DNA of 64,000 nt from Amylibacter sp. SFDW26 (GTDB lineage: Bacteria; Pseudomonadota; Alphaproteobacteria; Rhodobacterales; Rhodobacteraceae): contig NZ_WEIC01000007.1 in NCBI RefSeq assembly GCF_009184395.1, forward strand, positions 1 through 64,000, given 5' to 3'. Below are positions 39,041 through 52,498 of the stretch, one piece after another (the first letter of the stretch is position 1; each line of letters begins with the position of its first letter). A model generated the notes under the pieces. The model was given only the letters and a program-made list of their open reading frames with translations, was not told the DNA's origin and made no database searches. Both the position numbers and the translations under genes were made by a program.

Positions 39041-39625
39041 TTGACAGAAACTCTACATATCGTTGTTATTGACCCCAATAAAGACCGCGCATTTCTTATT
39101 GTGGACGGCTTACAAGAGTATTCTGGTTATAAAGTTACAGTCGTTGGCGAAACGCATGGCTTGGCTCGAAAGCTGTTATCATTAAAACCAGACATTATTC
39201 TGATTGATCTAGAAGATCCTTCGCGTGATAGTTTTGAACAGATTGTCAGTGCTCTTAATGCGGCCAAACAACCCGTTGCAATGTTTGTTGATCATAGTGA
39301 TCAAAGCATGATGCGCGCTGCTATTGAAGCAGGTATAAGTGCATATGTTGTCGATGGAATGCGAAAAGATCGCATTAAACCCGTACTGGAGACTGCGATC
39401 GCTCGGTTTCATTCCTTTCAACGAGTAAAAAAGGAATTAGAGACAACGAAAGCTGCACTTGCAGAGCGCAAACATGTTGACCGCGCGAAAGGCATGTTAA
39501 TGAAAGCGCGCAACCTTACCGAAGAAGAAGCCTATTCTTTATTACGCAAAACTGCGATGGACCAAGGCCGTCGTGTTTCAGAAGTCGCTGAAGGACTGCT
39601 TACAGCAGCAAAGTTATTATTGTGA
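39041..39625 (+). CDS. nasT: NasT, ANTAR-domain antiterminator for nitrate assimilation
   Basis: 194 residues from TTG 39041. Residues 1-125 form a receiver-like domain (IVVIDPNKDRAFLIVDGLQE, then IILIDLEDP at the phosphoacceptor position). Residues about 135-192 are an ANTAR RNA-binding domain (DRAKGMLMKARNLTEEEAYS, then LLRKTA). In Paracoccus and Azotobacter, NasT is released by nitrate-bound NasS and prevents termination in the leader of the nitrate operon. The nasS start overlaps its stop (GTGA) and the leader contains matching RNA hairpins. Confidence 0.92.
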   Translation: MTETLHIVVIDPNKDRAFLIVDGLQEYSGYKVTVVGETHGLARKLLSLKPDIILIDLEDPSRDSFEQIVSALNAAKQPVAMFVDHSDQSMMRAAIEAGISAYVVDGMRKDRIKPVLETAIARFHSFQRVKKELETTKAALAERKHVDRAKGMLMKARNLTEEEAYSLLRKTAMDQGRRVSEVAEGLLTAAKLLL

Positions 39626-40782
39626 GCAAAGCTATAAACATCGGTTTTGTACCTTTAACAGATGCAGCACCCTTAATCTTAGCTGTTGAAATGGGTTTTG
39701 CAGAAGAAGAGGGTTTAAGTATAAATTTAGTCCGCGAACACAATTGGTCATCTGTAAGGGATAAATTGTCTTTTGGAGTTCTAGACGGCGCTCATATTTT
39801 ATTGCCAATGGCTCTTGCGATGTCTTTGGGCCTAGCACCCGCCCCTAATAAAATTGATATCCCGATTATTTTAAACATGAATGGTAACTCTTTTGTTGCT
39901 GGGAATAAGCTTACTAAAAAAATTAAAGCTGTTGGTGGTGTATTTGGAAAAACAAAGGATATTGGCGAAGCTCTAATTACTTTGACGCAAGAAAGCCCTA
40001 TTCGTGTCGCAGTACCCTTTTTACAAAGTATGCATGTCACAATGCTGCGCCATCTTATATCTCAATTAGGGCACACGCCTGAAACGGTCTTTGATTTTCA
40101 TGTCTGCGCTCCATCCTCAATTGAAATGGCTTTGAATACAGGCAATGTAGATGCCTTTATGGTTGGCGCACCTTGGGCCACAAATGCTATCGATAATGGT
40201 AGTGGGCATCTTATGCTAACGTCAAATTCGATCTGGCAAGGTGCGCCAGAAAAAGCGTTTGGCATACGGCGCCAGTGGCTGGACGAGCATCGAAATGAAG
40301 CCGAACAAATGGTGCGTGTCTTGTACAGGGCTGCCAATTGGGTTTCGAACCCATCGAATGCTTCTGTTGCAAGTGAAATTTTATCAAATCCTAAATACTT
40401 AGACTTAGATACAAATCACATTGAAAGCAATCTGCGTGGTGACATACTAGTAAAGAGCAATGGCATGACCATAAATGAACCCCTTGCTTTACAATTTGAT
40501 GCAAAACGCATTGGGTTCCCGTGGAAAAGCACCGCAGCTTGGATCGCAGAGCAAAACGCACCTTATTGGGGTGTGAGTATAGAAGATGCACGAACTATTG
40601 CACGTGAAGCTTGCCGTACAGACATTTACCGTTCTGCTTTAGAATCAGTCAAAGCACCGCTCCCTTCTGCAAATGAAAAAGTAGAGGGCAGCCTAAAGGC
40701 ACGAACTTCGGTTTCAGGGTTCCACGAACCAATATTCGGCCCAGATGCCTTTTTTGATGGCATTACATTTGACGTTGCCTAA
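39622..40782 (+). CDS. nasS: NasS, cytoplasmic nitrate/nitrite sensor
   Basis: 386 residues, NrtA/CmpA-like binding fold without a signal peptide: it starts at GTG 39622 with INIGFVPLTDAAPLILAVEM immediately. DGAHILLPMALAMSLGL, near residue 53, corresponds to the nitrate pocket region of NrtA. The lack of an export signal, and coupling to nasT, separates it from the transporter component nrtA downstream. NasS sequesters NasT when nitrate is absent. The C-terminal region includes a WIAEQNAPYWGVS segment also seen in related binding proteins. Confidence 0.92.
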   Translation: MSKAINIGFVPLTDAAPLILAVEMGFAEEEGLSINLVREHNWSSVRDKLSFGVLDGAHILLPMALAMSLGLAPAPNKIDIPIILNMNGNSFVAGNKLTKKIKAVGGVFGKTKDIGEALITLTQESPIRVAVPFLQSMHVTMLRHLISQLGHTPETVFDFHVCAPSSIEMALNTGNVDAFMVGAPWATNAIDNGSGHLMLTSNSIWQGAPEKAFGIRRQWLDEHRNEAEQMVRVLYRAANWVSNPSNASVASEILSNPKYLDLDTNHIESNLRGDILVKSNGMTINEPLALQFDAKRIGFPWKSTAAWIAEQNAPYWGVSIEDARTIAREACRTDIYRSALESVKAPLPSANEKVEGSLKARTSVSGFHEPIFGPDAFFDGITFDVA

Positions 40783-40849
40783 ATTACGCGCACAAAAAAT
40801 ACGTCATAGGAATTGACCCTTTTCCACCTACTTCTTATCCTAGTAACCA

Positions 40850-40911
40850 TTATGACAACGATGTCATAAGACTACACCCTTTAAGTTTACCCCTACAAGC
40901 AATGCCGCTTG
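40850..40911 (+). promoter_or_regulatory. Two-hairpin ANTAR target (antiterminator) in the nrtA leader
   Basis: Hairpin 1 (40850-40869) is TTATGAC-AACGAT-GTCATAA, a perfect 7-bp stem. Hairpin 2 (40896-40911) is CAAGC-AATGCC-GCTTG, a 5-bp stem. Both loops are six bases with A at position 1 and G at position 4, the described signature of RNAs bound by ANTAR proteins. The 3' arm of hairpin 2 is also part of the terminator stem, so the two structures exclude each other. NasT binding should therefore allow readthrough into nrtA. Confidence 0.88.
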
Positions 40912-40966
40912 ATCTAAGAACAACAGTGCAATGTGCTCTGGTGTATTTTGATCAAGCGGCTTTTTT
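40904..40966 (+). terminator. Conditional intrinsic terminator in the nrtA leader
   Basis: GCCGCTTGATC (40904-40914) pairs perfectly with GATCAAGCGGC (40950-40960), followed directly by six T. The stem is 11 bp with a 35-nt loop. It lies 18 nt before the nrtA ATG and overlaps ANTAR hairpin 2 at 40904-40911. This is the arrangement of NasR/NasT-type antitermination. Confidence 0.9.
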
Positions 40967-40983
40967 ATGCGGAGTTATACAAC

Positions 40984-42327
40984 ATGCGATTAAAATCAAT
41001 TCTCTTATCAGCGACAGCTGGTATTTTGACCTCATTTCCTGTTTTAGCAGAAATACTTGACGTCGAAAAAGATGAGCTAAAGTTTGGTTTCATTAAACTA
41101 ACAGACATGGCTCCCTTAGCTATAGCTTATGAAAAAGGTTTTTTTGAAGACGAAGGTTTATTTGTAACCATCGAACCTCAAGCAAACTGGAAAGTGCTAC
41201 TAGATGGTGTGATTGATGGTACGCTAGACGGTGCACACATGCTAGCGGGTCAGCCTTTGGCGGCAACCATCGGATATGGCACCAAATCCCATATCGTAAC
41301 CCCCTTCTCTATGGATTTAAATGGCAACGGCATCACCGTTTCTAATGAAATTTGGGACGAGATGAAACAATATGTGCCTAAAGATGCAGATGGAAAATAC
41401 ATCCATCCTATTTCTGCAAAGTCACTAAAACCAATTGTTGAACGTTACAAAGACGAGGGCAAGCCGTTTAACATGGGAATGGTTTTCCCAGTTTCTACAC
41501 ATAACTATGAGTTACGTTATTGGTTGGCTGCTGGCGGCATTAACCCTGGTTTTTACACAAAAGATAATATCTCTGGCCAAGTGGATGCAGATGCATTGCT
41601 ATCTGTGACACCCCCACCGCAAATGCCTTCTACATTAGAGGCTGGTACGATCTTGGGATACAGTGTGGGTGAACCATGGAACCAGGCAGCCGTATTTAAA
41701 GGTATCGGTGTTCCTGTGGTAACAGATTATGAAATCTGGAAAAACAACCCAGAAAAAGTATTTGGTCTGACGAAAGAGTTCACAGAAAAATATCCAAACA
41801 CGACTTTAGCTTTGACCAAAGCCTTAATACGCGCGGCCCAGTGGTTAGACGCAGATGATAATGCCAACCGCGCTGAAGCCGTAGAAATTCTAAGCCGCCC
41901 AGAATATGTGGGCGCGGATTACGATGTGATCGCAAACTCTATGCTTGGTAGTTTTGAATATGAACGTGGAGACAAACGTGAAGCGCCTGATTTCAATGTG
42001 TTCTACCGCTACAACGCCACCTACCCCTATTATTCGGATGCCACATGGTACCTAACGCAAATGCGCCGTTGGGGGCAGATCACAGAAGCAAAGCCAGTAG
42101 AATGGTACGAGCAAGTGGCAAAAGACGTTTACAAACCTGACATCTATTTAAAGGCCGCTGAAATGTTGATCGAAGAAGGCCATATCAAAGCAGAAGATAT
42201 TCCGTTTGGCACAGATGGATACAAACCAGCCACATCTGATTTCATTGATGGCATCGAATACGATGGCAAAAAACCCTTGGAATATCTGGAAGCTTTGAAA
42301 ATTGGCCTAAAAGACAGCGCCTCTTAA
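40984..42327 (+). CDS. nrtA: NrtA, periplasmic nitrate-binding protein
   Basis: 448 residues from ATG 40984, with GGAG 9 nt upstream; an upstream in-frame start at 40933 lies inside the terminator loop and is excluded. Signal peptide 1-22 (cut after VLA; no lipobox seen). The mature protein has [20 protein letters not shown] and the pocket segment [20 protein letters not shown], as in NrtA/CmpA. It captures nitrate for the NrtBCD transporter. The gene is first after the NasT-controlled leader, so the whole operon through the cysG-like gene is likely nitrate-induced. Confidence 0.92.
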
Positions 42328-42398: not shown

Positions 42399-43472
42399 AT
42401 GACAACCATGGCCGACCCCATCCTAGCGAAAGAAGCCCGCAAAGAACGACTTTTTTCTAAGATCAACAAAGCAGATAAATATGTATCCATCTTAGGTCTT
42501 GCTTGGCTAACACCATTGCTAAAGATGATTTTAGGCGATGATCTTAAAACGAATGGCAAAGAGATTTGGCGTTTATTGGGTGTCCCTGTTGTGGCCATCG
42601 TATTATTCTTAACTGCTTGGGGTGTTCTGGCACCGAAAGTTGTCACCTCTCTTGGTGCGGTGCCTGGGCCTGTTCAAGTTTGGGAACAGTTTACAAATCT
42701 AAATGCTGATCATGTGCGCCAACGTGAAAAAGCGACCGCTTTTTATGAACGCCAAGATGTACGTAATGAAAAGCTGATTGCGGCGGGTAATGCGGATAAA
42801 GTGAAACACCGTATATTTACAGGTGCACCAACATATTACGATCAAATTTGGACATCATTACAAACTGTATTCTTTGGTTTCCTCGTGGCGACTGTCATCG
42901 CCATACCATTAGGTATTGCGGGTGGTTTATCCCCCATGGTTGGCGCGGGCATGAACCCGATTATCCAGATATTCAAACCTGTTTCCCCATTGGCATGGTT
43001 ACCCATTGTGACAATGGTCGTATCAGCAACCGTTAGTTCAGTTGATCCATTATTAGCCAAGTCATTCCTCGTTTCCGCAATCACAGTAACGCTTTGTTCG
43101 ATATGGCCAACTTTGATCAATACAACACTTGGTGTGGCAAGTATTGATAAAGACCTAATCAACGTGGGCAAGGTTTTGAAACTTGGCACATGGACAAAGA
43201 TTACAAAGCTGGTTTTACCGTCTGCCCTGCCCCTTATTTTCACAGGATTACGCCTTTCATTAGGTGTTGGTTGGATGGTTTTAATTGCCGCAGAAATGTT
43301 GGCGCAAAATCCAGGCCTTGGAAAATTTGTTTGGGATGAATTCCAAAATGGCTCCAGCCAATCGCTTGCAAAAATCATGGTTGCGGTTCTGACAATCGGT
43401 TTGATTGGCTATCTCTTGGATCGCCTGATGTATGCCTTGCAATCCATGTTCACATTTACAGCGAATAGGTAA
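42399..43472 (+). CDS. nrtB: NrtB, nitrate ABC transporter permease
   Basis: 357 residues. A cytoplasmic N-terminus of about 55 residues is followed by a first helix (VVAIVLFLTAWGVLAP) and a periplasmic-type segment (about 85-145). The BPD_transp_1 domain has about five more helices (about 150-350). The EAA-like ATPase contact is in GVASIDKDLINVGKVLKLGT (about 247-266). Length and layout fit NrtB/SsuC-type nitrate permeases. It is followed 5 nt later by the double ATPase gene. Confidence 0.92.
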   Translation: MTTMADPILAKEARKERLFSKINKADKYVSILGLAWLTPLLKMILGDDLKTNGKEIWRLLGVPVVAIVLFLTAWGVLAPKVVTSLGAVPGPVQVWEQFTNLNADHVRQREKATAFYERQDVRNEKLIAAGNADKVKHRIFTGAPTYYDQIWTSLQTVFFGFLVATVIAIPLGIAGGLSPMVGAGMNPIIQIFKPVSPLAWLPIVTMVVSATVSSVDPLLAKSFLVSAITVTLCSIWPTLINTTLGVASIDKDLINVGKVLKLGTWTKITKLVLPSALPLIFTGLRLSLGVGWMVLIAAEMLAQNPGLGKFVWDEFQNGSSQSLAKIMVAVLTIGLIGYLLDRLMYALQSMFTFTANR

Positions 43473-43477
43473 TCGAT

Positions 43478-45151
43478 ATGAGCATCCTATCCTTAAAAGA
43501 AATTTGTAAATCCCACGGCGACACATCCGTTTTGAAAGACATTAATCTGGAGATCGAAGAAGGAGAGTTTATCGCTATTCTTGGATTCTCAGGATCTGGG
43601 AAATCAACGTTGATTAATATCCTTGCAGGATTAGAAAATGCCGATAGCGGTGAAGCCTTGTATAATGGCATGCCTATTGCAGAACCAAGCCCAGAACGCG
43701 GTTTAGTATTTCAAAGCTATTCGCTTATGCCTTGGCTGACTGTGCGTGATAATATTGGCTTGGCCGTACATTCCGTCCACACAGATAAATCTAAAACAGA
43801 GCGTTTGGACATAATCGAAAAATATATCGATATGGTTGGCCTATCACACGCAGCAACACGCCGCCCCGCAGAGCTTTCTGGTGGCATGCGCCAGCGCGTG
43901 TCTGTTGCACGGGCACTTGCAATGCAGCCAAATGTTTTGTTGCTGGATGAACCTTTATCAGCACTGGACGCTCTGACACGCGCCAATTTACAAGATGAGA
44001 TTGAGGCCATTAGTCAAAAAGAAAAGAAGACCATCGTCTTGATCACCAATGATGTGGACGAGGCAATATTGCTGGCAGATCGTATTATCCCTTTGAATCC
44101 TGGTCCAGATGCGGATCTAGGTCCTGATTTCAAAGTAAACATTCCCCGCCCACGCGACCGTACTGCAATGAATGACAATAAAACATTCATTAAATTAAGA
44201 TCGGATATCACCAATTACCTGATGGAAGTTGGTTTTGAAGCGGCAACCGAACAAACGCGTGTTTTGCCTGATATCACGGCGATACATCACCTTGTCCCTG
44301 CAGCATTTCGCAAGGCAGCAAAGTCAGAAACAGCAAACAATGAACGGTATCTGCAATTTTCCAAAGTGCACAAAGTTTATCCTACTCCAAAGGGCCCTTT
44401 GACCGTTGTAGAAGACTTCGACCTGACAATGAAAAAAGGGGAGTTTATCTCTATAATTGGTCATTCGGGCTGCGGCAAATCAACAGCTCTGACTATGGCG
44501 GCTGGCTTAAACCCAATTTCAAAGGGTGGTATTATTCTAGACGGCAAACACGTTGAAGGTGCTGACCCTGAACGTGCCGTAGTATTTCAGTCCCCTAACC
44601 TATTCCCATGGCTAACAGCAAAACAGAACGTAGCAATTGGTGTTGATAAAGTTTACCCCAAAGCAACACAACAAGAACGCCAAGAGGTTGTTGAATATTA
44701 TCTGGAACGTGTTGGCCTTGCCGACGCTATGGATAAATCAGCAGCTGATATGTCCAATGGAATGAAGCAGCGTGTAGGAATTGCCCGCGCATTTGCCCTC
44801 TCTCCAAAACTATTATTGTTGGATGAACCTTTTGGCATGTTGGACAGCCTGACACGCTGGGAACTGCAAGAGGTTTTAATGGATGTTTGGTCCAAAACCA
44901 AAGTGACAGCAATCTGTGTGACCCACGATGTAGACGAAGCCGTTCTACTGTCAGATCGCGTTTGTATGATGACAAATGGCCCGCGGGCAACGGTAGGTAA
45001 ATTGATGACCGTTGATTTGCCACGTCCCAGAACACGCAAAGCATTATTGGCACATCCTGATTATTACAAATACCGCGCAGAAGTGCTGCAATTTCTAGAA
45101 GATTACGAGCATGGGGACCCTACCCCATCTCAAGAAGGAGAGGCTGCATAA
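43478..45151 (+). CDS. NrtC-NrtD-like nitrate transporter with two fused ATPase domains
   Basis: 557 residues with two complete ABC domains. Domain 1 (about 1-260): Walker A GFSGSGKST, signature [15 protein letters not shown], Walker B VLLLDEPLSALD. Its H-loop reads LITNDVDEA, with Asn where the switch His is expected. Domain 2 (about 290-545): Walker A GHSGCGKST, signature MSNGMKQRVGIARAF, Walker B LLLLDEPFGMLD, H-loop CVTHDVDEA with His. It replaces the separate NrtC and NrtD of cyanobacteria, without NrtC's binding-protein domain. The site pairing domain 1 Walker motifs with the domain 2 signature looks degenerate. TAATG overlap with nirB. Confidence 0.9.
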   Translation: MSILSLKEICKSHGDTSVLKDINLEIEEGEFIAILGFSGSGKSTLINILAGLENADSGEALYNGMPIAEPSPERGLVFQSYSLMPWLTVRDNIGLAVHSVHTDKSKTERLDIIEKYIDMVGLSHAATRRPAELSGGMRQRVSVARALAMQPNVLLLDEPLSALDALTRANLQDEIEAISQKEKKTIVLITNDVDEAILLADRIIPLNPGPDADLGPDFKVNIPRPRDRTAMNDNKTFIKLRSDITNYLMEVGFEAATEQTRVLPDITAIHHLVPAAFRKAAKSETANNERYLQFSKVHKVYPTPKGPLTVVEDFDLTMKKGEFISIIGHSGCGKSTALTMAAGLNPISKGGIILDGKHVEGADPERAVVFQSPNLFPWLTAKQNVAIGVDKVYPKATQQERQEVVEYYLERVGLADAMDKSAADMSNGMKQRVGIARAFALSPKLLLLDEPFGMLDSLTRWELQEVLMDVWSKTKVTAICVTHDVDEAVLLSDRVCMMTNGPRATVGKLMTVDLPRPRTRKALLAHPDYYKYRAEVLQFLEDYEHGDPTPSQEGEAA

Positions 45152-47595
45152 TGGCCCAAAAATTAGTTATAATTGGGGCTGGCATGGCCTCTGGCCGTTT
45201 GATCGAGCATTTGTTGGATAATGATCCAAACGCATATGATATTACCCTTTTCAATGCAGAACCACGCGGCAATTACAATCGCATCATGTTGTCCCCTGTC
45301 CTATCAGGCGAAAAGACATATGAAGATATCATCACACATTCAGATGATTGGTATGCAGAAAACAATGTCACCACATATTTTGGTGAAGCTGTTACAACGA
45401 TTGATCAGGATGCAAAAACGGTCACCTCAAAATCGCACACTGTTACCTATGATAAATTGGTTATAGCGACAGGATCTGCACCTTTCATCATTCCAGTTCC
45501 AGGTAAAGATTTGTCTGGCGTCATGGCTTACCGTGATTTGGATGATGTGAATAAGATGTTAGCGGCCTGTGACAAGAAAAACGCCAAAGCTGTTGTCATT
45601 GGCGGTGGCTTGTTAGGTTTAGAAGCAGCTGCTGGCTTAAAAGAGCAAGGCATGGATGTGACCGTACTGCATATTGCAGGTCACTTAATGGAACGCCAGC
45701 TTGATCCTGCTGCGGGTCATCTATTGCGCAAAGAGCTGGAAAACCGCGATATCAAGATTCACACCGAAGGCTTTACCAAAGCGATTTTGGGCGAAGATAA
45801 GGTTGATGCTGTTTTGTTAGAAGATGGCACTATTTATGAAGCTGATATCGTTGTGATGTCCGCAGGCATTCGCCCCGAAACGCGCATTGCAACAGACTTG
45901 GGCCTTCATGTGGAACGTGGCATCGTCGTGGATGATGGCATGCAAACAAGCGACCCAAATATTTTTGCAGTTGGTGAGTGTATTGAACATCAAGATCAAC
46001 TTTATGGTTTGGTTGCCCCTCTTTATGATCAAGCTAAAGTGTTAGGTGCAAATTTGCTTGGCGGAGATGAGATTTTCAGCCCCGTGGAAATATCAACAAA
46101 ACTCAAAGTTACGGGATGCGATCTGTTTTCTGCTGGTGATTTTGCAGAAGGGTCAGACCGCGAGGAAATCGTTTTCCGCGATGCAGTACGCGGCGTATAC
46201 AAACGCCTGATAATCCAAAAAAACATCATCATTGGCGCTGTTATGTACGGCGATACAGCTGATGGTGGCTGGTTCTTGCAAAAAATCAAAGATCGCGAAG
46301 ATATATCCGAATTGCGCGACACATTAATCTTTGGACCAAATTTTGCGAGCGGGGCACCATCGGACCCGTTGGCAGCCGTTGCAGCCTTGCCGCTTGATGC
46401 TGAAATCTGCGGTTGTAACGGCGTTTCTAAAGGCGACATATTAGCAGCCATCGAAGGTGGCGCAGACAGTTTAGACGCGGTTAAAATGCTAACCAAAGCC
46501 TCTACATCCTGTGGGACGTGTGCTGGATTAACAGCCCAAGTTGTACAGATTGGATTGGGCGATGACTTTGTGCTGCCAGAGGCAGATACAATCTGTAAAT
46601 GTTCTGATTACAGCCATGACGATGTACGCAAGCTTATAATTTCAAAAGAGCTGAAAACCATTCCTGACATAATGCAGGAATTACAATGGAAAACGTCTTG
46701 CGGATGCATCACCTGCCGCCCTGCCCTAAACTATTACTTAGTATGTGCATGGCCGGGTGAATATGTGGATGATGGTCAAAGCCGTTACATCAATGAGCGT
46801 GTTCATGCGAACATTCAAAAGGATGGCACCTATTCAGTTGTTCCACGTATGTGGGGCGGCATTACAACCCCCGATGAATTGCGTGCGATTGCTGATGCAG
46901 CGGATAAGTACAACGTACCGACTGTGAAAGTAACAGGTGGGCAGCGGATTGATTTATTGGGCATCGAAAAAGAAGACCTACCTGCAATTTGGTATGATTT
47001 GAACGAAGCTGGCATGGTGTCAGGCCAAGCCTATGCAAAAGGTTTACGGACTGTGAAAACTTGTGTGGGTTCAGATCATTGCCGTTTTGGGACACAAGAC
47101 AGTACAGGACTTGGTATTCAGCTTGAAAAAGCAATGTGGGGTGCATGGTCACCGCATAAATTCAAACTTGCCGTATCTGGTTGCCCACGCAATTGCGCAG
47201 AGGCAACTTGTAAGGATTTAGGCATCATCTGTGTCGACAGCGGATATCAAATCCTTGTCGGCGGCGCTGCTGGTATGGATTTACGTGAAACAGAGTTGTT
47301 GGCTCAGGTTACAACCGAAGAAGAGGCATTAGAACTGGCCTGTGCATTTTATCAACTGTACCGCGAAGGCGCACAATATTTGCACCGCCCTTATAAATGG
47401 ATTGCAAAGGTTGGTTTGGATTGGGTCAAAGGACAATGTGTTGAGGACGTTGAGAACCGTAAAGCATTGGCCGGTCGGTTCCATTATTCACAGACATTCT
47501 ATCAAGTTGATCCTTGGGCAGAGCGCGCGTCCAAAGGCAAAGATGCCTATGAATATTCCCCATTAGCAGATTTTTCAAAGGTGGCAGCAGAATGA
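45151..47595 (+). CDS. nirB: NirB, assimilatory NADH-nitrite reductase large subunit
   Basis: 814 residues. FAD (KLVIIGAGMASGRLIEHLL) and NAD(H) (AVVIGGGLLGLEAAAGL) domains occupy about 1-310. A BFD-like [2Fe-2S] region follows (CGCNG ... SCGTCAG, about 412-455) with a second Cys cluster (CKCSDY ... CGCITC, about 482-525). The siroheme/[4Fe-4S] ligands are in TCVGSDHCRFG (about 634-645) and SGCPRNCAEATCKDLG (about 672-687). It reduces nitrite to ammonium in the cytoplasm. Start overlaps the nrtCD-like stop, and its end overlaps nirD by 4 nt. Confidence 0.95.
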   Translation: MAQKLVIIGAGMASGRLIEHLLDNDPNAYDITLFNAEPRGNYNRIMLSPVLSGEKTYEDIITHSDDWYAENNVTTYFGEAVTTIDQDAKTVTSKSHTVTYDKLVIATGSAPFIIPVPGKDLSGVMAYRDLDDVNKMLAACDKKNAKAVVIGGGLLGLEAAAGLKEQGMDVTVLHIAGHLMERQLDPAAGHLLRKELENRDIKIHTEGFTKAILGEDKVDAVLLEDGTIYEADIVVMSAGIRPETRIATDLGLHVERGIVVDDGMQTSDPNIFAVGECIEHQDQLYGLVAPLYDQAKVLGANLLGGDEIFSPVEISTKLKVTGCDLFSAGDFAEGSDREEIVFRDAVRGVYKRLIIQKNIIIGAVMYGDTADGGWFLQKIKDREDISELRDTLIFGPNFASGAPSDPLAAVAALPLDAEICGCNGVSKGDILAAIEGGADSLDAVKMLTKASTSCGTCAGLTAQVVQIGLGDDFVLPEADTICKCSDYSHDDVRKLIISKELKTIPDIMQELQWKTSCGCITCRPALNYYLVCAWPGEYVDDGQSRYINERVHANIQKDGTYSVVPRMWGGITTPDELRAIADAADKYNVPTVKVTGGQRIDLLGIEKEDLPAIWYDLNEAGMVSGQAYAKGLRTVKTCVGSDHCRFGTQDSTGLGIQLEKAMWGAWSPHKFKLAVSGCPRNCAEATCKDLGIICVDSGYQILVGGAAGMDLRETELLAQVTTEEEALELACAFYQLYREGAQYLHRPYKWIAKVGLDWVKGQCVEDVENRKALAGRFHYSQTFYQVDPWAERASKGKDAYEYSPLADFSKVAAE

Positions 47596-47930
47596 ATGAT
47601 TTTGTAGATATTGGTGCTGTGGAAGATATCCCTGTGCGTGCTGCACGTGTTGTGAAAACTCCACAAGGCTGTATTGCTGTTTTTAGAACAGCAACAAATA
47701 AAGTCTATGCCATCGATGATAAATGCCCACATAAAGGCGGGCCATTATCGAATGGTATTCAGCATGATGAAAGCATCACTTGTCCCTTGCATAATTGGGT
47801 GTTTGATTTGAATACAGGTCAGGCAAAAGGGGCAGATGAAGGTTCTGTAAAAACATACACGATCAAAGTTACAGATGGTCGTATTCTAATGGATACATCA
47901 GAGTTTATTCCTGAAATGGCTGCGGAATGA
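47592..47930 (+). CDS. nirD: NirD, nitrite reductase small subunit (Rieske type)
   Basis: 112 residues. Rieske [2Fe-2S] ligands are complete: CPH at 45-47 and CPLH at 64-67. Many NirD proteins lack these ligands, so a cluster-carrying form is worth noting. It partners NirB, and the genes overlap by ATGA on both sides. Confidence 0.92.
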   Translation: MNDFVDIGAVEDIPVRAARVVKTPQGCIAVFRTATNKVYAIDDKCPHKGGPLSNGIQHDESITCPLHNWVFDLNTGQAKGADEGSVKTYTIKVTDGRILMDTSEFIPEMAAE

Positions 47931-50560
47931 CAGCCACACGTACAACTTGTGCATATTGCGGTGTTGGCTGTGGAATTATCGCAAACAATGGTGCGAATGG
48001 TGAGGTTGAGATCAAAGGCGACCCTGACCATCCTGCAAATTATGGGCGCTTATGTACAAAAGGCAAAACACTTGGTGAAACACTATCATTAGAAGACCGC
48101 CTGCTTACGCCTATGATTGATGGAAAACAGGCCTCTTGGGATCACGCAACGGATTTAGTTGCCGAAAAGTTTAAAAAAACAATCGCCAAACACGGCCCAG
48201 ATAGTGTTGCGTTTTATGTTTCAGGTCAATTATTGACCGAAGATTACTATGTCGCCAATAAATTGATGAAGGGTTATATTGGCTCTGCAAACATCGATAC
48301 GAATTCTCGTCTGTGCATGGCTTCATCTGTTGCTGGTCACAAACGCGCCTTTGGTACAGATACTGTGCCAGGAACGTATGAGGACTTAGAAACTGCTGAT
48401 CTGATTGTTCTAGTCGGATCAAATCTAGCTTGGTGCCATCCTGTGCTGCATCAACGCATTATCGATGCAAAAGATACCCGTGGCACTAAAATCATCAATA
48501 TTGACCCCCGTAAAACCGCTACGTCAGAAATGGCAGATGTTCATTTAAATATTAGACCTGGTGGTGATGTCGCTTTATTCAATGGCCTATTAACAGCCAT
48601 TTCTAACGCTGACGCAATAAACGCCGAATACGTTAAAAGCCATGTAAATGGGTTAGAAGATGCTCTGAAAGCAGCACAGAAAATGGACATCCCCGCGATT
48701 TCTGCGCTGACAGGGCTAACTCCTACTCAACTATCCGAGTTCTATTCGGCCTGGATAAATACGAAGCGTGTAGTCACAATATATTCTCAAGGTGTGAATC
48801 AAGCTTCAGATGGATCTGACAAAGTAAATGCCATCATAAACTGCCACCTAGCCACTGGGCGTATTGGCACAGAAGGTTGTGGGCCTTTTTCCATAACGGG
48901 GCAACCTAATGCGATGGGTGGACGCGAAGTTGGTGGTTTGGCTAATATGCTAGCAGCCCACCTTGATATAGAAAACTCACAACATCGCACTGTAGTCAGA
49001 GATTTTTGGGATGCCCCTAATTTACCATCAAAAGCAGGGTTAAAAGCGGTCGACCTCTTTGACGCTTGTGCAGATGGCAAAATCAAAGCCTTATGGGTGA
49101 TGTGCACAAATCCTGCTGTCAGCATGCCACGCGCAAATGATGTAAAAGCAGCAATCGAAGCGGTCGATTTTGTTGTTGTATCTGACATCGTACAAGACAC
49201 CGACACCACAGCGCTAGCAGATGTTTTATTACCTGCAACAGGTTGGGGCGAAAAAGATGGTACTGTTACCAATTCAGAACGCCGTATTTCGCGCCAACGT
49301 TCATTTTTAAGCCCTCCACATCAAACCAAACACGATTGGCAAATTATATGTGAGGTTGCTGCAAAAATGGGTTGGGGCAACGCATTCAACTATGAATATC
49401 CAAGTGAAATATTCAGCGAATGGGCCGCGATGACAAAGCTTTCTGTCGACGCACAGAAAGATCTAGATTTAACGAATCTAACAAACATGCATAACAACGA
49501 ATATGACGATTTGCCCCCCATACAGTGGCCTGTAACTGCGGATAGGTCAGATACTCGGTTTTTTGCCAATGGGGGATATTTCACGGCCGATGGCAAAGCG
49601 CGTATGTTACCCATTACACCAAGAGAACCTGCAAATGTGCCTTCATCTGAATACCCTTTCATTTTAAATACAGGGCGTATCCGCGATCATTGGCATACAA
49701 TGACACGCAGTGCTAAATCTTCCACACTGAGCACACATATTGCCGAACCATTTCTTGAACTTAATCCCGCGGATGCAGAACGTTTAAATATCAAACAGGC
49801 TGAACTGGTACAGGTGAACAGCCCACATGGATATATTATACTACGCACATTGATCACTGACCGCACACAAGTTGGTCAAGTCTTTGCTCCCATACATTGG
49901 ACATCACGGTGGGCGGCTTGCGGCCGCGTTGATACGGTTGTTACATCCGTTGTTGATCCCGTATCTGGGCAACCAGAATTGAAGCGAACACCCATATCCA
50001 TATCCCATTACAAAGCGAAATGGTTTGGATTTGCAGTCGTCAAAGACGAACCGTTTCCAACATCTGGTTATTGGGCAAAAGCCAAAACTCACTCAGGCTG
50101 GCGTGTAGAAATGGCAACCTTAACTGCACCCGATGATTTCGAACAATTTACACGTGACCAACTCGGAATAAAAACCGCTCAAGCTGTAACTTATTCCGAT
50201 ATAGCGACAGGACAAAACCGGATCGCATTATCTGAAAATAATACTTTGCTTGGTATAATGTTTGGCGCAACTAATCCTGTAAGTTTATCACGCAACTTCG
50301 CTATAGATGCATTCGATCGAAACGATGAAATGGATATCCTAGCGGGCTTTGCTGGCTCTAAAACTTTCGATGCTGGCCCTACAATCTGTTCATGCTTTAA
50401 TGTTGGCATCAATACGCTTGTTAAATTGATTGCATCTGGTAAGGCCGCAACACTTGAAGATATTGGCGCAAATCTGCAAGCTGGAACAAACTGTGGGTCA
50501 TGTCGACCAGAATTGATGGGGCTCTTACAAAACCACCAACCAAAGATTGCCGCTGAATGA
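47927..50560 (+). CDS. nasA: NasA, assimilatory nitrate reductase catalytic subunit
   Basis: 877 residues of the Mo-bis-MGD family. The N-terminal [4Fe-4S] ligands are Cys8, Cys11, Cys15 and Cys43. The molybdopterin domains include SRLCMASSVAGHKRAFGTD, near residue 126, where the Cys is the expected Mo ligand, and the C-terminal molydopterin-dinucleotide domain (LNTGRIRDHWHTMTRSAKS, about 582-600). The last 60 residues are a BFD-like [2Fe-2S] domain (ICSCFNVG ... NCGSCRPEL). No signal peptide, so it acts in the cytoplasm. Electrons come from a ferredoxin or a flavoprotein not seen in the window. Confidence 0.95.
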   Translation: MTATRTTCAYCGVGCGIIANNGANGEVEIKGDPDHPANYGRLCTKGKTLGETLSLEDRLLTPMIDGKQASWDHATDLVAEKFKKTIAKHGPDSVAFYVSGQLLTEDYYVANKLMKGYIGSANIDTNSRLCMASSVAGHKRAFGTDTVPGTYEDLETADLIVLVGSNLAWCHPVLHQRIIDAKDTRGTKIINIDPRKTATSEMADVHLNIRPGGDVALFNGLLTAISNADAINAEYVKSHVNGLEDALKAAQKMDIPAISALTGLTPTQLSEFYSAWINTKRVVTIYSQGVNQASDGSDKVNAIINCHLATGRIGTEGCGPFSITGQPNAMGGREVGGLANMLAAHLDIENSQHRTVVRDFWDAPNLPSKAGLKAVDLFDACADGKIKALWVMCTNPAVSMPRANDVKAAIEAVDFVVVSDIVQDTDTTALADVLLPATGWGEKDGTVTNSERRISRQRSFLSPPHQTKHDWQIICEVAAKMGWGNAFNYEYPSEIFSEWAAMTKLSVDAQKDLDLTNLTNMHNNEYDDLPPIQWPVTADRSDTRFFANGGYFTADGKARMLPITPREPANVPSSEYPFILNTGRIRDHWHTMTRSAKSSTLSTHIAEPFLELNPADAERLNIKQAELVQVNSPHGYIILRTLITDRTQVGQVFAPIHWTSRWAACGRVDTVVTSVVDPVSGQPELKRTPISISHYKAKWFGFAVVKDEPFPTSGYWAKAKTHSGWRVEMATLTAPDDFEQFTRDQLGIKTAQAVTYSDIATGQNRIALSENNTLLGIMFGATNPVSLSRNFAIDAFDRNDEMDILAGFAGSKTFDAGPTICSCFNVGINTLVKLIASGKAATLEDIGANLQAGTNCGSCRPELMGLLQNHQPKIAAE

Positions 50561-51546
50561 CTGATTTCGCAAAATATGTGTATGCAATGGGCCGAGGTCC
50601 ATCCAAAGGGCGCAATTTAACGCGCACAGAAGCCATGGATGCGATGGCTCAAATATTAGCTGGCCAAGTAGATCCCCATGCTATTGGTGCGCTTTTAATG
50701 TTGATGCGTTATCGCGGGGAGACGCCAAATGAAATTGCTGGCTTTGTTGATGCCATGCGCATGGGTTCAACTAAATGGGCAGAATTAAATATAGCGCTAG
50801 ACTGGCCAAGTTACGCTGCGGGGCGCACCCGCGGTTTACCGTGGTTTTTACTATCTGCAAAACTTGTAGCATCCGCAGGTTTCCCCATCATGTTACATGG
50901 TTGGAATTCGCACCAAAACACCATTGCTAGCGTCACAAATGCCGTCCAAAATATCGGTATTCCCACATGCAATACTATAGACGAAGCAAACGTTAGTTTG
51001 CGCGAAAACGGCATTATTTATTGTCCATTGCAAGCACTTGATCCTAATATTCTAAACCTGTTGAAACTTCGAGATGTATTGGGTTTACGGTCAGCAATAA
51101 ACACAGCGCTGCGGGCTTATAATCCAAGTCGCGCCCCTGTATCTGTTCAGGGCGTTTTTCATCCAAGTTACCGCACATTACAATCTCAATCGGCACTATT
51201 GCTAAAACAAGAAACGCTCGCTGTAATCAAAGGCGGCGGCGGTGAATTCGAATGTAATCCGACTAAAGACACCGAAGTTTTCATAGTACAATCGGATCAA
51301 GAAAATCAATATATTGCACCCGCAATTTTGTCAGATACAAAACGCTTATCTGATGCCTCAAATATCACAGATGGACTACAAGCTTTATGGCAAGGTGAGA
51401 TTGAAAACACCTTCGCAGAAAAAATCATCATATCAACTGCGGCTATAGCTCTTCATGCATGTAATCCAGCGGGAACATATAAACACTCATTACAATATGC
51501 AGCTGACTTATGGACCCAAAGACCGCCCATAAACGCGAACGGATAG
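50557..51546 (+). CDS. TrpD2/YbiB-like glycosyltransferase-family-3 protein in the nitrate operon
   Basis: 329 residues of the anthranilate phosphoribosyltransferase-like fold. The helical N-domain has RNLTRTEAMDAMAQILAGQV and GALLMLMRYRGETPNEIAGF. The alpha/beta domain holds LVASAGFPIMLHGWNSHQN, where TrpD has the PRPP/pyrophosphate GTGGD-type loop; that loop is not conserved here. This fits the TrpD2 group, some of which bind nucleic acid instead of acting as transferases. The start overlaps nasA by 4 nt, so it is translated with the reductases. Its role in nitrate assimilation is unknown. Confidence 0.8.
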   Translation: MTDFAKYVYAMGRGPSKGRNLTRTEAMDAMAQILAGQVDPHAIGALLMLMRYRGETPNEIAGFVDAMRMGSTKWAELNIALDWPSYAAGRTRGLPWFLLSAKLVASAGFPIMLHGWNSHQNTIASVTNAVQNIGIPTCNTIDEANVSLRENGIIYCPLQALDPNILNLLKLRDVLGLRSAINTALRAYNPSRAPVSVQGVFHPSYRTLQSQSALLLKQETLAVIKGGGGEFECNPTKDTEVFIVQSDQENQYIAPAILSDTKRLSDASNITDGLQALWQGEIENTFAEKIIISTAAIALHACNPAGTYKHSLQYAADLWTQRPPINANG

Positions 51547-51550
51547 CTTT

Positions 51551-52498
51551 ATGAAAACCTTCCCTATGTTTCTGAAAATGAAAAACCGCCGTGTATTAAT
51601 CATAGGCGGTGGAGAACAAGCCGCGCAGAAAGCACGGCTGATCTTAAAGACAGAAGCTAAAATATGTATCCTGGCAGACCATCTAAATTCTGAATTAGAA
51701 CTTCTAAAAACCGAAGGTCACATAACCCATTTCACAGGGCCATTGACGATTGATTTGTTAAAATCATCAATCCTTACATTCTCTGCAACCGGGTGTTCTG
51801 GTGCGGGCGCTGCACATGCAGCTTTAGCAGAACAAGCGAATAGCATAATTAACGTAGTTGACATGCCTGAATTTTGCGAGGCTATGACACCTTCAATTGT
51901 TGACCGTGATCCTTTTATCATTGCAATTGGCACTGAAGGAAATGCGCCAATCCTTGGCCGTCAAATGAAGAGTAAGATTGAAACCTTTTTAGAACCAGGG
52001 CTGGGCCGATTAGTCTCATTCGCAGGAGCTATGCGCACTGATGTAGCTCAGTACATTGAAGAAAAACAGAGGCGACCTTTTTGGAATTGGGTATTTAATG
52101 GAACGCCAAGACAAGAGTTCGGCAAAGGGAATGAACGCCGTGCATTTGAAATTATAAGAAAACAAATCCAATCTAATGGCATCAATACTTATAAAAATGG
52201 GCATACTGTCATGATAGAAGTATTAGATTCTAACCCCGATAATTTAAGACTTAAGGATCTAAAGAGCCTTCAAGAAGCTGATCTAATCCACTTTAAAAGC
52301 GGGTTTCATGAAGACATATTAGAACTTGCAAGGCGTGATGCACTACGGCAGGCCTATACTCATCTTGAAAACATTCTAAACACTTTGAAAGAACCCAATA
52401 TTAACGAATATAATGAAGGTAAAAATATCGTAGTATTATGCTCTAAGCCATTAGGATCGCTTTCCAAACCCAATCTAAAAGTTATTTCGACAGCCTGA
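51551..52498 (+). CDS. Siroheme synthase CysG-like, precorrin-2 dehydrogenase with a reduced methyltransferase half
   Basis: 315 residues. The N-terminal NAD fold (RRVLIIGGGEQAAQKARLIL) and the CysG dimerisation segments (about 115-205, IIAIGTEGNAPILGRQMKSK) belong to precorrin-2 dehydrogenase/ferrochelatase. From about 210 the sequence follows the start of uroporphyrinogen-III methyltransferase (LRLKDLKSLQEADLIHFKSG, then ILELARRDA). The GAGPGDP-like SAM motif is replaced by EVLDSNPDN, and only about 105 of the usual 250 residues remain. Siroheme for NirB would need a separate CobA/SUMT elsewhere. It is 4 nt after the previous gene. Confidence 0.82.
   Translation: MKTFPMFLKMKNRRVLIIGGGEQAAQKARLILKTEAKICILADHLNSELELLKTEGHITHFTGPLTIDLLKSSILTFSATGCSGAGAAHAALAEQANSIINVVDMPEFCEAMTPSIVDRDPFIIAIGTEGNAPILGRQMKSKIETFLEPGLGRLVSFAGAMRTDVAQYIEEKQRRPFWNWVFNGTPRQEFGKGNERRAFEIIRKQIQSNGINTYKNGHTVMIEVLDSNPDNLRLKDLKSLQEADLIHFKSGFHEDILELARRDALRQAYTHLENILNTLKEPNINEYNEGKNIVVLCSKPLGSLSKPNLKVISTA

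Follow-up and report, generated by a model that had tools for sequence, protein, structure and literature searches.

The leader of nrtA in Amylibacter sp. SFDW26 is very probably a NasT antitermination leader, that is, a transcription attenuator at which NasT, by analogy with its characterized relatives, would bind the leader RNA and allow read-through into a nitrate operon. This conclusion was reached because a covariance model placed the site first in the genome, because nasT is the sole ANTAR gene of that genome, and because NasT and the leader co-occur across genomes. The original prediction, an antitermination switch of the NasR/EutV/NasT type, was thus supported by the presence of the elements and the fact that they exclude each other, by conservation and covariation among relatives, by the co-occurrence with NasT, and by the RNA-contact residues that NasT has kept. 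The two hairpins of the leader, P1 and P2, are probably used jointly across the 26 nt that separate them.

Within the window (the whole stretch of 64,000 nucleotides that was analyzed), the gap between nasS and nrtA holds P1, P2, and an intrinsic terminator (Table 1). Both A1/G4 hexaloop hairpins lie exactly where they had been predicted. The terminator 5' arm begins within the P2 loop, and the 3' arm of P2 (GCTTG, 40907 to 40911) lies wholly inside it, which confirmed that P2 shares this arm with a perfect 11-bp terminator followed by six T residues; P2 and the terminator are therefore mutually exclusive, and that part of the prediction was upheld as well. The outer stem of the terminator encloses 35 nt, and the enclosed part also folds. 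Dual-hexaloop ANTAR leaders are defined by two hairpins of at least 3 bp with six-base loops, by A1 and G4 in both loops, by a second hairpin that is exclusive with an intrinsic terminator, and by an ANTAR protein in the genome. Here, the stems have 7 and 5 bp, the loops AACGAT and AATGCC carry both bases, P2 overlaps a terminator that ends in T6, and one ANTAR protein is encoded 1.2 kb upstream of the leader. The linker of 26 nt falls outside the 5-to-12-nt range within which EutV works.

Table 1. Features of the window and, in the last two rows, genes that follow second leaders in related genomes
Feature	Position or locus	Strand	Description
nasT	39041..39622	+	TTG start; Pfam ANTAR (E 5.8e-20) and Response_reg, receiver-like (E 5.5e-7)
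nasS	39622..40782	+	NrtA-like putative nitrate/nitrite sensor; Pfam NMT1_2 (E 1.3e-61); overlaps nasT end
Likely nrtA promoter	40813..40841	+	TTGACC-17-TATCCT; promoter-like match; TTGACC invariant in aligned leaders
P1 hairpin	40850-40869	+	7 bp; loop AACGAT, 40857-40862 (A1, G4); first ANTAR-type hexaloop; covariation in relatives
P1-P2 linker	40870-40895	+	26 nt; no predicted hairpin (MFE 0.0)
P2 hairpin	40896-40911	+	5 bp; loop AATGCC, 40901-40906 (A1, G4); second ANTAR-type hexaloop; antiterminator
Intrinsic terminator	40904-40966	+	perfect 11-bp outer stem, 40904-40914/40950-40960; T6, 40961-40966
nrtA	40984..42327	+	nrtA-like nitrate-binding protein; first gene of regulated operon; Pfam NMT1_2 (E 2e-94)
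Probable operon remainder	42399..52498	+	co-transcription inferred from gene order and strand
Full CysG-type protein after second leader (eight)	L233, L235, L237, L240-L243, G564/L256		
Uroporphyrinogen methylase frame after second leader (one)	L234		

The leader (40840 to 40972) folds at -39.1 kcal/mol compared to a shuffle mean of -23.8 (sd 3.0; z -5.1), and as low an energy was reached in 0 of 200 shuffles. The full arrangement, two A1/G4 hairpins of which the second overlaps a terminator, arose in none of 5,000 dinucleotide shuffles of 40780 to 40983; 253 of these contained one or more A1/G4 hexaloop hairpins of at least 5 bp, 5 contained two, and 46 contained a terminator of at least 9 bp. 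P1 together with P2 has a predicted energy of -12.1 kcal/mol and P1 together with the terminator one of -25.3 kcal/mol, and the predicted fold of an RNA lacking the terminator 3' arm already contains P1 and P2. TTGACC, the -35 element of the likely promoter, is the same in all 6 leaders that were aligned, the window included, and from the promoter spacing nrtA transcription would start near 40848; promoter-like pairs in the region were not above chance (4 found, 7.0 expected).

Pfam and NCBIfam matches agreed with the claim that nasT-nasS lies just upstream of the leader and a nitrate operon just downstream. The genes that follow nrtA encode an ntrB-like permease (below the NCBIfam cut-off), a fused ntrCD-type ATPase and NirB (both above it), a Rieske protein, a NasA/NasC-like molybdopterin reductase (NasC and formate-dehydrogenase matches both below their cut-offs), a glycosyltransferase-3 protein, and a CysG N-terminal-like protein. 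nasT gave the only ANTAR match in the 3.1-Mb genome, and its product aligned to the EutV structure 6wsh (E 2.4e-15). Six of the nine RNA contacts named for EutV (PMC8934654) are identical in NasT (R142, K143, Y164, R168, M172, and R177), the remaining three being replaced (K147 by R, N173 by D, and R175 by G); this matching assumes that the chain numbering of 6wsh is shifted by 2 from that of the paper, a shift that we inferred. In the EutV-RNA structure, Y164 stacks on loop G4 (PMC8934654). Two marks of a NasS-NasT system were thus found, a protein with receiver-like and ANTAR domains that keeps key RNA-contact residues and an adjoining NrtA-like NasS sensor.

A covariance-model search, which had been proposed as a check, was carried out with a model (R1) built from 38 leaders with the window's genus excluded. 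The site in the window ranked first in the genome (34.4 bits; E 1.1e-5). The runner-up, at C5:553752 (20.1 bits; E 0.05), was rejected as a second leader since it has by eye the appearance of an ordinary terminator, and a second exact copy of the P2 12-mer at C1:735105 was absent from the R1 matches; the genome has a single leader. When 80 named NasT loci were searched, R1 matched 62 at an E value of 0.01 or lower, 39 of these being training leaders or a duplicate, and missed 18 (15 from Paracoccus, one each from Falsirhodobacter and Gemmobacter, and one cut contig). The unmatched Paracoccus loci (L053, L057, L061, L065, L071, and ten others) include that of Paracoccus denitrificans (L071), and they suggest that these leaders form a distinct subclass. 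Among 296 Rhodobacteraceae genomes, R1 matches were found in 121, NasT (E 1e-20 or better) in 127, and both in 117, so that a leader was detected in 117 of 127 NasT-bearing genomes versus 4 of 169 genomes without NasT. The best E value in the four genomes with R1 matches alone was 2e-5. The ten genomes with NasT and no R1 match include that of the window and one other (G020), which do have a leader; both leaders were lost through the stricter filters of the large searches.

Leaders from relatives were collected by a scan of genome contigs, in which 81 regions were examined: 79 of the best 80 of 293 loci (one contig stops inside nasS), the window, and one further locus (L008). The selection rule required P2 and an overlapping terminator and ignored P1; 48 of the 81 regions passed, and removal of L058 (odd terminator) and L042 (duplicate of L041) left 46 leaders, mostly from Rhodobacterales. 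The P2/terminator overlap is kept among these 46, as the selection rule demanded. In the loop of P1, an unselected feature, A1 was present in 44 of the 46 leaders and G4 in all 46, and one of the two A1 exceptions (L044) is misaligned, its actual loop being AACGAG. Among the 38 leaders from other genera, 5 of 6 tested pairs of the P1 stem had changed on both sides. The covariation observed over the full structure was reached by 0 of 500 column shuffles of these leaders on any of five measures, a comparison that ignores kinship. Conservation of the leader is centered on the hexaloops and the terminator. The original prediction would have been refuted had relatives lost A1/G4 or stem covariation, and neither loss was seen. 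Since its loop bases are conserved and its stem covaries strongly, P1 seems to have been under selection as an ANTAR target.

These data bear on a variant of NasT antitermination in which NasT would act on P2 alone, or separate dimers would act on P1 and P2, and in which P1 would be a bystander or a 5' hairpin for RNA stability. The 26-nt linker without predicted structure speaks for such a variant, as do studies of EutV, in which 20 extra linker nucleotides abolished antitermination in vitro and the protein bound isolated P1 or P2 similarly well (PMC8934654). The conservation and covariation of P1 argue against it, as does the finding that hairpin HI of the P. denitrificans leader, taken as the counterpart of P1, is required for growth on nitrate (PMC5424462), and we consider this variant unlikely.

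Among the closest known systems is the NasS-NasT/nasA leader of P. denitrificans, which belongs to the same pathway and where nasTS also lies directly upstream, the leader has hairpins, and the ANTAR protein is likewise NasT (PMC3795266, PMC5424462). There, NasT binds the nasA leader RNA, and NasS gives up NasT in the presence of nitrate or nitrite (PMC3795266); HI and HII are placed 137 and 91 bp ahead of nasA, and expression on nitrate stayed nearly the same when HII was mutated (PMC5424462). Unlike the operon in the window, the regulated genes are nasABGHC, and R1 does not match the leader. The eut leaders of Enterococcus faecalis share with the nrtA leader two A1/G4 hexaloop hairpins, a P2 that shares terminator sequence, and a protein with receiver and ANTAR domains (PMC3369931, PMC8934654), but their linkers are 5 to 12 nt long, and EutV is activated by phosphorylation whereas NasT is activated by release from NasS. 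In Klebsiella, NasR mediates nitrate-responsive ANTAR antitermination of a nas operon at the nasF leader, again with A1/G4 loops, but, as described, the nitrate sensor and ANTAR domain are in one protein, without NasS (PMC3369931). NasT of Bradyrhizobium diazoefficiens is said to bind the 5' leader of nosR, preventing a terminator; its target is a denitrification gene (PMC6759348).

Linker length sets the nrtA leader apart from the eut leaders, in which a 14-nt linker drastically cut eutP induction (PMC3369931). The ANTAR motif definition of 2012 permits a variable linker (PMC3369931), and an actinobacterial curation of ANTAR targets took linkers of 2 to 25 nt (PMC8164766). The 46 leaders, with the same order of P1, P2, and terminator, have linkers of 26 to 40 nt, the window's being the shortest and a few being overestimated where P1 is mismatched. 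A linker fold was predicted in 45 of the 46, the window being the sole exception; the mean z was -1.74 versus mononucleotide shuffles, individual folds reached P < 0.05 in just 16 of 46, and in some leaders the predicted fold differs from a CCC/GGG hairpin. By a stem-and-loop rule, a middle hairpin was present in 43 of 46 leaders, versus 55% of shuffled linkers, and 20 of these 43 hairpins carry both A1 and G4 in the loop (13 seven-base and 7 six-base loops), versus 4.3% in shuffles. All three tested pairs of the middle stem vary on both sides among the 38 leaders, in an imperfect register: pairs were counted in a single register, probably one off, since U-G predominates at the outer pair (20 of 38) and 11 of 38 leaders have no pairing at the inner one. 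A second set comprised 60 regions, with second leaders and some genomes of the named loci among them; in it, 41 leaders were called by a crude P1 rule (four of the chosen P1 loops lack A1), and by the same lenient stem-and-loop rule 40 of the 41 have a linker hairpin, the exception being a cysG leader (L242).

Outside the family, both linker types occur. A search of Pseudomonadota gave 115 genomes with NasT, and 40 NasT regions were scanned, 35 outside Rhodobacteraceae and 5 inside. P1, P2, and a terminator were called in 18 of the 40 (14 outside and 4 inside the family), for 21 calls in total, among which some far from nasT may be due to chance; three block-wise mononucleotide shuffles of each of the 40 regions gave no such call. 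Beyond the family, there are two-hairpin leaders with short linkers of 1 to 8 nt (e.g., L153 and L173) and also three-hairpin leaders (L162, L164, and second sites in L171 and L173). L171 and L173 each gave two NasT-type leader calls, of which one is a short-linker leader and the other a three-hairpin leader with an A1/G4 middle loop. In our reading, long P1-P2 spacing is a trait of the window's group, and the middle hairpin predates the genus and was lost in the window. It is possible, if on balance doubtful, that the NasT leaders of this group represent a three-hairpin class, in which a hairpin close to CCC-RANGAYY-GGG stands between P1 and P2 and serves either as one more ANTAR-type contact or to shorten the distance by folding. 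Such leaders would be read by a larger NasT assembly, for which the spacing rule of EutV is relaxed, rather than by a single dimer passed between neighboring hairpins; the window, which retains P1, P2, and terminator, would then be a natural deletion. That an assembly of this kind might bridge the linker is suggested by P. denitrificans, whose released NasT behaves as roughly a hexamer (PMC3795266). If the three-hairpin reading is true, the window leader would show that the middle hairpin is dispensable.

The course of events proposed for the window, with nitrate release of NasT, RNA binding, and read-through taken from the named relatives, is as follows. Without nitrate, NasS would hold NasT. 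RNA polymerase, arriving from the nrtA promoter or continuing from nasTS, would make P1 and then P2; the far more stable terminator would overtake P2, and transcription would end before nrtA. With nitrate or nitrite, NasS would free NasT, which would bind the hexaloop of P1 and then that of P2 and hold P2 closed during synthesis of the terminator 3' arm, and polymerase would then proceed into the nrt-nir-nas operon. A natural experiment fits this model. In Amylibacter isolate 3-365 (L037:3540-3960; judged by coordinates to be the same as G032, 99% complete), NasT, P1 (with one mismatch), and P2 are kept, NasS was not found in the genome (the only nasS-like matches fall in the nrtA frame), and the terminator 3' arm has decayed (GATCAACAG, versus GATCAAGCGGC in the window). 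The joint loss of sensor and terminator, in one genome, agrees with the model.

This decay also counts against the view that the terminator is an ordinary one that ends nasTS while control of nrtA lies with a promoter of its own, perhaps by way of NtrC. Its position just after nasS is as that view would have it, and an exact match to the NtrC consensus (as given in PMC5424462) lies at 40746 to 40762, inside the 3' end of nasS and about 50 bp before the -35 element; matches with 0 or 1 mismatch are enriched upstream of leaders (8 of 46, versus 1.1% of shuffles). But the terminator stands downstream of the conserved TTGACC, and any RNA begun there would have to pass through it; leader and NasT co-occur across genomes; and the NtrC-like match also encodes a recurring DAFFDG-type stretch of NasS, a coding role that may explain its conservation. 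We did not count the NtrC site as established because it encodes this stretch and because in L037, where nasS was not found, even the best match differs at 2 positions. Across the whole window, neither the NtrC pattern with up to 2 mismatches (144 matches, 140 expected) nor the sigma-54 pattern (110 matches, 99 expected) was above chance. An ordinary nasTS terminator is, on these data, very improbable. A different structured RNA, a small RNA or riboswitch, is extremely improbable, since a weak match to SpF19_sRNA (E 0.11; 23.4 bits versus a gathering score of 60) is the sole point in its favor, no Rfam family reaches its gathering threshold within the 64-kb window, and conservation is centered on the hexaloops and terminator.

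Siroheme is the cofactor of NirB-type nitrite reductase. Two R1 matches were found in 10 of the 296 Rhodobacteraceae genomes, and in 9 of the 10 the second leader is followed by a siroheme-synthesis gene (Table 1); in the tenth (G545, L236), the gene after the second leader gave no family match. In Rhodobacter aestuarii (L063:2681-2787) and R. maris (L082:2640-2746), a divergent second leader precedes a tetrapyrrole methylase. The genome of the window has its CysG N-terminal-like gene inside the nitrate operon; this open reading frame (51551 to 52498) matched the NAD-binding and dimerization domains and gave no methylase domain match, and a methylase match lies elsewhere in the genome, in a 473-aa frame at C1:643227.

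Our literature search was limited to open-licence papers, in which neither three-hairpin NasT leaders nor NasT leaders on cysG were found described; this is not a claim that they are absent from print. The switch type itself was already known; what is new here, and was no part of the original prediction, is the long spacing, the missing middle hairpin, and the siroheme genes behind NasT-type leaders in relatives. The second leaders point to NasT control of siroheme supply, too, in some relatives. Moreover, the nrtA leader offers a clean nitrate switch that lends itself to testing, and the 46 aligned leaders vary naturally in hairpin spacing, a feature that is strict for EutV, and comparison of the window leader with its three-hairpin relatives would reveal how ANTAR proteins measure distance.
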